A DNA stretch of 64,000 bases from Rubrobacter aplysinae (GTDB lineage: Bacteria > Actinomycetota > Rubrobacteria > Rubrobacterales > Rubrobacteraceae): NCBI RefSeq assembly GCF_001029505.1, contig NZ_LEKH01000001.1, positions 186,001 through 250,000 on the forward strand. Direction: 5' to 3'. The notes below the pieces were generated by a model, which worked only from the letters and a program-made list of their open reading frames with translations, made no database searches and was not told the DNA's origin. Numbering within the stretch: the stretch's first letter is position 1; every line of letters begins with the position of its first letter. The translations under genes and the position numbers were made by a program. This document shows, in pieces, positions 2,593 through 8,043 of this stretch.

Positions 2593-3675
2593 ATGAAGGT
2601 AGGAATAGTCGGGCTGCCGAACGTCGGCAAGTCCACTGTATTCAACAGCTTGACGAGCGCGGGCGCGGAAGCCCAGAACTACCCGTTCACCACCATAGAC
2701 CCCAACCTCGGGGTCGCGGAGGTGCCGGACGAGAGGCTGCGCGCGCTGGCGGATACGATGAGCAGCCGCAGCGTCGTACCGGCGACGGTGGACTTCGTGG
2801 ACATCGCCGGGCTCGTCGAGGGGGCGAGCGGCGGCGAGGGTCTGGGTAATCAGTTCCTCGGGCACATCCGGGAGTGCGAGGCTATCGCGCACGTCGTGCG
2901 CTGCTTCGAGGACGAGAACGTGGTCCACGTCGGCGGTCGGGTGGACCCGGAGGCGGACGCCGGGATCATTCAGACCGAGCTTCTGCTGGCCGACCTCGGC
3001 ACCGTCGAGCGGCGGCTGGAGCGCACCACGAAGGCCGCCAAGAGCGGCGACACCAAGATCAAACAGGAGGCCGCCGGGCTGGAGGCTTTGCGGGAGCACC
3101 TCTTTGCCGGGGAGCCCGCCCGCACCTTCGAGGCGACCGACGTCCTGTGGGAGGCGCTGGACTCTCTCATAACCACCAAGCCCGTTCTGTACGTGGCGAA
3201 CGTGGACGAGACCTCGGTGGCCGAGGGAAACACCCACAGCGCCACGGTCGAGAAGCTGGCCGCCCGCGAGGGGGCGGAGTCCGTGAGGCTGTCGGCGGGG
3301 CTGGAGGCCGAGGTGGCCGAGCTGCCTGAGGAGGAGGCGCGGGAGTATCTGGAGATGCTCGGCGTGGAGTCCACCGGGTTCGAGGGCTTCGTGCGGGCGG
3401 CGTACAGTTTGCTCGGGCTTATCACGTTCTTCACCACCGGCGAGAAGGAGAGCCGGGCGTGGACCCTGACCGAGGGCTCGACGGCGCGGCAGGCGGCGGG
3501 CCGGATCCACTCGGACATGGAGCGCGGCTTTATAGCGGCGGAGACCGGCAACTGGGAAGGCGTGGTCGAGGCCGGCTCGTGGTCCGGGGCGAAGGAGAAG
3601 GCCCGGATCCGGCTCGAAGGCCGCGACTATCTCGTAAAAGACGGGGACGCCATGATCTTCCGCTTCAACGTCTAG
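2593..3675 (+). CDS. ychF: Redox-regulated P-loop ATPase YchF (OLA1 family)
   Basis: Universally conserved ribosome-associated Obg-family NTPase that prefers ATP to GTP. The 360-aa length matches the family (about 363). The G1 loop GLPNVGKST is at residues 7-15 and [10 protein letters not shown] (G3) near 66. The N-x-x-E form of G4 is in ANVDE near 206, typical of the YchF subfamily. The C-terminal TGS domain ends with [12 protein letters not shown]. The start is placed at ATG 2593 because homology begins with MKVGIVG. A longer frame back to 2503 would add 30 unconserved residues and run through the -10 box. The selenoprotein-like gene follows 12 bp later and may be cotranscribed. Confidence 0.95.
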
Positions 3676-3687
3676 CGGGCGGGTAGG

Positions 3688-4359
3688 ATGACCGAGCCCG
3701 CCAGGCTGGACAAGCCGCTCTCCGAAGCCCGGATCGCGCTCGTCACCACCGGCGGCGTCCACCTCCCCGAGGATGACCGCTTCGACATAGACGACCCGGC
3801 CGGAGACTGCTCGTACCGCGAGATCCCGACAGACTCCCCCGGCCTCGACGGTCTGACCTGGACCCACGCCTACTTCGCCGACCGCCGCTCTGGGAGTAGT
3901 CACCGTGAGGACCTGGATTGCGTATTTCCGCTGTGGACGATGCTCGGGCTGGTCGAGGAGGGCGTGGTCGGGGGGCTCAACCGGCGGCACTTCAGCTTCA
4001 TGGGTGCGATCCACGACACCACCGGGCTCGAGGAGCGCACGGCCCCCGAGGTGTCCGGGCTGCTCGCGGAGGATGCGGCGGACGCCGTGCTGCTTACCCC
4101 CTCGTGACCGCTGTGCCACCGGTCCGTGGGGCTGGTCGCCAGCGAGATACAGCGGCGCGGCATACCGACCGTAACGCTCGCCGTGGAGCGCGGCGTGACG
4201 GCCCCGAGGGTCGCCTACGTGCCGTTTCCCTATAACTTCCCGATGGGCGGACCGGGGGACGGGGCCCGCCACCGGGAGGTCGCGCTATCCGCGCTGGAGC
4301 TCTTGAGCGGGGCTTCGAGCGAGACCGGGGAGCACGAGCTGCCGTTCGAGTGGCGGTGA
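3688..4359 (+). CDS. GrdB/PrdB-family reductase with in-frame TGA (probable selenocysteine 140)
   Basis: Member of the glycine/sarcosine/betaine/D-proline reductase selenoprotein B family in its short (about 220 aa) form. One frame runs from ATG 3688 to the stop at 4359 and is interrupted only by TGA at 4105-4107. The residues around it read TPS-U-PLCHRSVG, which places the TGA at the redox U/C-x-x-C position of the family (U140, C143). Homology continues without a break through GIPTVTLAVERG and YVPFPYNFPMG to the end. The pattern fits selenocysteine; Cys-containing relatives have CPxC here. After the TGA, CCAC(CGGTCC)GTGG can form a small stem with GGTC in the loop, a weak SECIS candidate only about 13 nt from the TGA. 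TGA is a normal stop elsewhere in the window. A fresh nonsense mutation is the alternative. No sel genes are in view. Confidence 0.75.
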
Positions 4360-4502: not shown

Positions 4503-5204
4503 GTGGCTTTCGTATTTATAGCTTTCGCGGCGATGTTGTTTATCTTCTTTCTGCTGCTGGTGCCGGTGCTGTACTCGATACAGGCCGTCGGTAGCCTGTT
4601 CGTGTATCCGAAGCAGCTAAAGACGATGTTCGGGAACAAGATCCTGCGCCGCAACCACGCGCTGGAGCACGCCACCATAGCCGTGATGATGGAGCGTGAG
4701 CCGGGCCGCAAGCTAAACGGCTTCTCGAACGACGACGGTTTCTACGTGCAGGGCGTGCGCAACCTCGAAGAGGTGGACTCCGCGGCCCGCGAGGCCGCGG
4801 GCCGGCTCCAGAACGGCGAGAAGGGCCTCGCCATCCACCGCAACTGCGGCACCACCATCGTCGCCGCGAACCTGCTGGCGGCGGTCGCCTTTATCGGGGT
4901 TATAGCCACCGGGTTGCTCATGGGCATGAGCCTCGGGCTGAACTTCTACCTCCTGATAGTGGCCGGTATGCTGGCCTCGCTGCTTTTGCGGGTGCCGCTA
5001 AGTCTCTTCTTGCAGCGGTTCGTTACCACCCAGCACGACCTCTCAAACGCCGAGGTCGGCTGGGTGGAGCCCGCCAAGCCCAACGAGCTGCGGGCCGGGA
5101 TCGTGGGCATGCTGCTGGCCTCCTCCACCGCACAGGTCAGGGTGTTCCACACCGACCCGGACGCCGTCGAAATCATCCGCGACGACGGGGCCGCGGTCCG
5201 CTAA
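4503..5204 (+). CDS. DUF6391-type membrane protein with HxxEH motif
   Basis: 233 residues. A strong N-terminal membrane helix (about residues 2-33) is followed by a soluble stretch opening with RRNHALEHATIAVMME. I recall this HALEH signature from DUF6391 proteins of cyanobacteria and actinobacteria. Two or three more helices lie at about 120-170 (VAANLLAAVAFIGVIATGLL and following), and the C-terminal domain is soluble. H52-x-x-E55-H56 matches the HxxEH zinc pattern of inverzincin peptidases, but no function is established and this may be coincidence. The start is GTG, supported by GAGGACGG upstream. The next small membrane gene begins 16 bp downstream. Confidence 0.75.
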   Translation: MAFVFIAFAAMLFIFFLLLVPVLYSIQAVGSLFVYPKQLKTMFGNKILRRNHALEHATIAVMMEREPGRKLNGFSNDDGFYVQGVRNLEEVDSAAREAAGRLQNGEKGLAIHRNCGTTIVAANLLAAVAFIGVIATGLLMGMSLGLNFYLLIVAGMLASLLLRVPLSLFLQRFVTTQHDLSNAEVGWVEPAKPNELRAGIVGMLLASSTAQVRVFHTDPDAVEIIRDDGAAVR

Positions 5205-7029: not shown

Positions 7030-8043
7030 CTATGTAGCGGGCTGTATCGGCTGCGGGGAGCCGCCGGAGCGGGCGGAGGCCAGGAGCTCGCCGAGGGCTC
7101 TGGCGTTGCCCAGGATCTCGCCGGGCCCGACGGCGGGGTCCCGGCCTTCTCGCACGGCGCCGGCGAAGTCCTCGAGCTCCAGCCGGTACGGATCGCCCGG
7201 CTCGAACGTCTCCGTGGTGGTCTCGTCCCCGCGGGTTAGCAGGATCTCACCCCCCGACTTGTCTGGCCGGAACGGGGCGCGCAGCGTCGCCCGGCCCTCG
7301 GTGCCGGTGACGGTCAGGCTCTCGCGCCGGGCGGAGTCGAGGCCGCAGGAGATGGTGCCGAACCCCGACTCGAACTCCAGGATGCCGGAGATCTCACGAT
7401 CCGCGGCGTCCGAGCCCTCCCCGTCGAAGCGGGCCCTGGCCGAGGCCCCGGAGGGCTCCGAGCCGAACAGGAGCCGCAGGCCGCTGACGCAGTAGCACCC
7501 CACGTCGCCGAGGGCTCCGCCTCCGAGCGAGCCCACGCCGCGCACGTCCGAGGGGTCGTCGAGCCGGTGCCCGAACTCGGCGACGGCCTGGCGGACGGTC
7601 CCGATCTCACCGCCCGAGGCAATCTCCGCGAGCCGCTCCGTCTGCGGGCTGAAGCGGTACATGAAGCCTTCCATCAGCGCGAGCCCGGAGCCCCGCGCCT
7701 TCTCGACCGCCTCTGCGGCCTCCTCCGGGTCCAGCGCGAAGGGCTTCTCGCACAGGACGTGCTTGCCGGCGGAGAGGGCCTTCATGGTCCACTCGGCGTG
7801 CAGGGAGTTGGGGAGCGGGATGTACACCGCCTCGACGTCCTCGCTCTGCAGCAGCGCCTCGTAGCCCTCCAGCACCCTTGCCCCGGGCGCGGCGTCGGCT
7901 ATCGTGTCCCTCTTGTCGCCGCCCCGGCTGGCGACCGCCGTCACCTCCACCGCCGGCGAGCGATCTGCCGCCGGGATAATGCCGCCCAGGGCTATTCTGG
8001 CCGCGCCCAGTATCCCCAGGCGCAGCGGGGACTCCTCCTGCAT
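7030..8043 (-). CDS. Gfo/Idh/MocA family NAD(P)-dependent oxidoreductase
   Basis: 337 aa. The N-terminal Rossmann fold has the nucleotide-binding sequence GILGAARIA near residues 9-17. The family motif EKPFALDPEEAAEAV is near 100; its Lys is the usual catalytic residue. The C-terminal alpha/beta domain contains GGGALGDVGCYCVSGLRLLFG. Such enzymes oxidise or reduce sugars, inositols or related polyols, often trans-1,2-dihydrobenzenediol-like substrates; specificity cannot be read here. The start ATG is supported by GGAGG 6 nt upstream. It is the downstream member of a leftward run with the DUF429 and methyltransferase genes, separated by 120 bp. Confidence 0.9.
   Translation of the reverse strand: MQEESPLRLGILGAARIALGGIIPAADRSPAVEVTAVASRGGDKRDTIADAAPGARVLEGYEALLQSEDVEAVYIPLPNSLHAEWTMKALSAGKHVLCEKPFALDPEEAAEAVEKARGSGLALMEGFMYRFSPQTERLAEIASGGEIGTVRQAVAEFGHRLDDPSDVRGVGSLGGGALGDVGCYCVSGLRLLFGSEPSGASARARFDGEGSDAADREISGILEFESGFGTISCGLDSARRESLTVTGTEGRATLRAPFRPDKSGGEILLTRGDETTTETFEPGDPYRLELEDFAGAVREGRDPAVGPGEILGNARALGELLASARSGGSPQPIQPAT

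Follow-up and report, generated by a model that had tools for sequence, protein, structure and literature searches.

The locus and its reading frame

The window, a stretch of 64,000 nucleotides from Rubrobacter aplysinae, carries a predicted PrdB-like selenoprotein gene on its forward strand at 3688-4359, made up of 223 codons and a TGA stop and apparently read through an in-frame TGA. The gene lies 12 nt downstream of ychF, which encodes an OLA1-type GTPase (2593-3675, forward strand), and is followed by a gene for a DUF6391 protein (4503-5204, forward strand); both are conserved neighbours in the Rubrobacteraceae. Under the standard code (table 11) the ORF ends at 4107 after 139 residues. 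With the TGA at 4105-4107 taken as selenocysteine (Sec), the frame continues from U140 through residues 141-223 to a TGA at 4357-4359. The motif around U140 reads PS-U-P-L-C, and its second (resolving) cysteine, C143, is encoded by TGC at 4114-4116 in a column that is invariant.

The first-pass annotation had described a single frame broken only by this TGA, with family similarity on both sides, and the profile matches bear this out: TIGR04483 (PrdB) aligns with residues 6-223 of the product, spanning the TGA (E=5.8e-32). PF07355 (GRDB) matches residues 3-137 only, at 25.1 bits, above its gathering cut-off of 22. The portion 3' of the TGA is conserved along with the rest of the protein, with 57-74% identity among orthologues, and shows third-position bias. 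Because the Cys orthologues L047, L048, L053, and L054 are full length and free of stops, we concluded that 3688-4359 encodes one protein.

The selenocysteine column and the SECIS hairpin

Among the Rubrobacteraceae orthologues, with the window copy counted in, the codon corresponding to 4105-4107 was TGA in 28 of 32 and TGC (Cys) in the remaining four. The R. taiwanensis gene likewise carries TGA. A search of 101 genomes yielded 43 homologous genes, 38 with TGA and five with TGC at this column, and a scan of named genomes gave TGA at 80/80 loci from Rubrobacteraceae, Acidobacteriota, Poribacteria, Latescibacterota, and others, several of these loci sharing a genome. Two peptide patterns were used for the scan, and since one of them ends in Cys and, when back-translated, should favour Cys codons, the 80-locus result is not biased towards TGA. 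No residue other than Sec or Cys was seen at the column among the 43 homologous genes and the 80 scanned loci. The first-pass annotation had placed the TGA at the redox position of a family with both Sec and Cys members and had proposed an alignment of homologues as a check; that alignment agrees on both points, with TGA or TGC at an invariant Sec/Cys column and no other sense codon. The clade of orthologues to which the window gene belongs was found only in Rubrobacteraceae. In some Rubrobacteraceae there is a further PrdB-like gene, also with TGA (L055, L056, and L057), which clusters with sequences from Acidobacteriota; this suggests that a selenoprotein gene was transferred horizontally together with its SECIS.

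Downstream of the TGA, on the same strand, lies a predicted SECIS hairpin (4118-4136) with the conserved sequence ACCGGUCC-GUG-GGGCUGGU, in which an 8-bp stem pairs 4118-4125 with 4129-4136 around the 3-nt loop GTG (4126-4128). The spacing from UGA to loop is 18 nt, the loop opens with G and then U, and the 41-nt fold has an energy of -24.1 kcal/mol. A published model of the bacterial SECIS (PMC13188914) specifies a loop of 3-9 nt, a stem of 4-16 bp, a G in loop positions 1-2, a spacing of 16-37 nt, and an energy of -7.5 kcal/mol or lower, and the window hairpin lies within every one of these constraints. It had earlier been remarked that the hairpin sat closer to the TGA than the usual SECIS spacing; this objection falls away, the relevant stem being longer than the one first seen and its spacing falling inside the published range. 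We discarded the shorter stem (CCAC...GTGG, its loop containing GGTC), as it is broken by GTC for GTG in many orthologues while the longer stem survives.

Conservation of the hairpin was assessed in two sets of sequences. The first comprised 33 sequences (28 Rubrobacteraceae orthologues and five paralogues or relatives, giving 27 distinct rows) and omitted five distant TGA rows, L058, L060, L063, L064, and L065, for register misfit or poor fit. Standard pairs filled 98.6% of its pair cells, double changes were present in 4/8 pairs, and 0/500 shuffles, which leave relatedness unremoved, were as good in percent paired and covariation. The second set, 51 distinct rows of Acidobacteriota, Poribacteria, and other phyla plus the window row, was 92.6% paired with a covariation of 0.329 versus 0.166, both greater than in all 500 shuffles of the same kind. 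In slid registers, a control that retains relatedness, the paired fraction dropped to 14-57%. When 27 Rubrobacteraceae Sec orthologues were compared with the window, third codon positions just outside the stem differed in 12, 15, and 19 of the 27 and the one in the loop in 12, as against 0-1 for those in the stem, with an exception (9/27) at which pairing was preserved. Under a synonymous-codon null for a single Rubrobacteraceae sequence, the 8-bp stem arose in about 3-8% of draws, a modest effect, much of the stem being dictated by the encoded protein; the case for this predicted hairpin is carried by its conservation and covariation across the alignments and not by one sequence. A DNA search with the hairpin gave no match on plasmids. 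The distant homologues L060, L063, and L064, with the motif U-P-D-C, have the TGA and lack the hairpin in the register of the window; their SECIS may be placed differently.

The Cys orthologues offer a separate view of the hairpin, which is damaged in 4/4 of them, with 5/8 pairs left in L047, L053, and L054 and 7/8 in L048. On the tree, the five Cys rows require three changes, two of them within the Rubrobacteraceae clade, and a change from Sec to Cys would be the simpler direction, the neighbouring rows being Sec. All four Cys-bearing Rubrobacteraceae genomes keep selA, and one of them (G004) has a Sec paralogue as well; the switch to Cys is therefore a change in a single gene rather than a loss of Sec decoding.

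The genome itself (3.19 Mb searched, 98.9% complete) has the machinery that Sec insertion calls for. On contig C5, selA (488.5 bits), selB (316 bits, over cut-off), and selC, a tRNA-Sec gene with anticodon TCA, are clustered within about 3.5 kb, and selD (353 bits) is on contig C22. The genome search recommended at first pass thus found all four genes. This selD (L049:1501-2460; G000:C22:28730-29647) has an in-frame TGA of its own, in the motif KAGUASK, and is probably a selenoprotein itself.

Alternative readings and the relation to PrdB and GrdB

The complete sel machinery, the Sec/Cys-only column, and the covarying hairpin all support the earlier proposal that the TGA is read as Sec. From these sequence comparisons we hold it nearly certain that this is the gene of a stand-alone PrdB-like selenoprotein, in which the UGA at 4105-4107 would be decoded as Sec by way of the hairpin at 4118-4136 and Sec140 and Cys143 would form a redox pair. 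The ORF end at 4107 under table 11 is what would be expected if the TGA were instead a true stop, with the gene split, decaying or encoding two proteins, the second from the GTG at 4126. We consider this extremely improbable, given that in the 28 of 32 orthologues and in 80/80 relatives every stop at this codon is TGA, with no TAA or TAG, that the downstream part retains its conservation and third-position bias, and that the Cys orthologues run on without a break. Moreover, the GTG at 4126 is the loop of the SECIS. Accordingly, of the split gene model foreseen by the first-pass annotation, the ORF end at 4107 stood and the restart at 4126 did not. That the UGA might specify some other amino acid, either Trp or, through near-cognate decoding, Cys, is a reading to which the presence of Cys as the alternative residue in four orthologues lends something, but we give it a very slight chance. 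TGA is also the normal stop of this same gene, which excludes a code in which TGA is simply sense; in addition, the genome has a complete Sec system and the gene has a SECIS.

A different question, compatible with a selenoprotein, is whether the product is truly the PrdB of a D-proline reductase or the B subunit of a glycine or betaine reductase. In D-proline reductase, PrdB has been described as the subunit that carries Sec (Kabisch et al. 1999, cited in PMC13188914), and TIGR04483 is the best family match of the window protein, which is of the same length class and shares 33% identity over 222 residues with the annotated Terrisporobacter PrdB, with the UxxC in register. However, it scored only 111 bits on this equivalog profile against a cut-off of 300, compared with 423.7 bits for the Terrisporobacter control. 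PrdA was not found in the 98.9% complete genome, in contrast to the Terrisporobacter control record (976.8 bits), and the adjoining genes are ychF and the DUF6391 gene rather than prdA or prdC. The resemblance to GrdB (PF07355, TIGR01918) extends to the UxxC and to homology with the C-terminal half of GrdB (profile positions 214-383), but the window protein is half the length and, at 47.6 bits, under the cut-off of 65.45 for TIGR01918, the glycine/betaine/sarcosine/D-proline reductase selenoprotein B family. GrdA was likewise not found in the genome, whereas the Peptoclostridium control record was positive (262.8 bits). We therefore regard a genuine PrdB or reductase B subunit as unlikely and, with neither PrdA nor GrdA found, the protein probably has no role in D-proline or glycine reduction. 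The family resemblance in the earlier label of a GrdB/PrdB-family reductase was upheld, and the word reductase was not, with the curated cut-offs missed and the partner subunits not found. The description that suits the product best is that of a stand-alone PrdB-like selenoprotein encoded next to ychF.

Predicted chemistry, gene neighbourhood and family

For this stand-alone PrdB-like selenoprotein we propose that SelB and tRNA-Sec, guided by the hairpin at 4118-4136, decode the UGA at 4105-4107 as Sec. This decoding step is strongly supported by the sequence comparisons, and from it we infer the insertion of Sec at U140. Sec140 and Cys143 would then cycle as a selenenylsulfide/dithiol redox pair in a thiol-type reduction, a role suggested by the motif and the family. 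An AlphaFold model (pLDDT 92.2, pTM 0.91) predicted a mixed alpha/beta fold in which U140 adjoins a helix (residues 141-156) that itself follows a beta strand, so that in the model U140 and C143 lie where the strand passes into the helix. A Foldseek comparison of the model with the PDB gave no match with E<0.001 (best E 0.027), and solved structures searched by sequence yielded no meaningful match; with no matching solved structure, the enzymology therefore rests on family resemblance.

In most of 24 Rubrobacteraceae loci (2593-4359 in the window, and L073-L095), ychF and the selenoprotein gene lie next to each other or overlap, in the same direction, which suggests at most that they are co-transcribed. 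Neighbour clustering did not show adjacency to ychF in other phyla, nor any functional partner common to the phyla; ychF and the DUF6391 gene were neighbours in Rubrobacteraceae only, and the genes next to the Acidobacteriota members were varied. In Poribacteria, the PrdB-like gene commonly lies between two genes of Gfo/Idh/MocA-family oxidoreductases, one on each side and in the same direction (L116, L120, L121, L123, L127, L129, L134, L135, L139-L142, L144, L146, L148, and L152), these genes being named by their clustering with the Gfo/Idh/MocA gene of the window. The latter is found about 3 kb downstream, at 7030-8043 on the opposite strand, and its presence near the PrdB-like gene may be due to chance.

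PrdB-type UxxC selenoproteins have been in the literature since 2005 or earlier, and the window protein thus belongs to a known selenium-using family. The Sargasso Sea data contained 42 'PrdB' UxxC selenoprotein genes (PMC1088965) and the Global Ocean Sampling data 235 such selenoproteins (PMC2398784), recent reviews list the group (PMC9312934; PMC13188914), and a listing in PMC1794560 already credits Rubrobacter xylanophilus with five selenoproteins. The ocean 'PrdB' proteins, likened here by description, share with the window protein the family label, the UxxC, and Sec with Cys homologues, and differ in that the window's orthologue clade was found only in Rubrobacteraceae and adjoins ychF; by this analogy, the two probably form one broad group. 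Among open-licence papers, nothing relevant was found on the window gene or on a link between YchF and a selenoprotein. It is possible, and we put this forward tentatively as somewhat less than an even chance, that the PrdB-like proteins that stand alone in Rubrobacteraceae, Acidobacteriota, and Poribacteria are a selenoenzyme subfamily apart from the Stickland reductases that acts alone on another substrate, and that the Rubrobacteraceae clade has a functional link with the GTPase YchF.

Reading 3688-4359 as one gene corrects an annotation that would split a PrdB-like selenoprotein gene in two. The Rubrobacteraceae also provide what appears to be a clean natural experiment, with two separate Sec/Cys changes in which selA was retained and the SECIS hairpin was damaged each time. 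The locus also shows that a PrdB-like selenoprotein, its family being generally named for amino-acid fermentation, occurs in Rubrobacteraceae without the fermentation partners.
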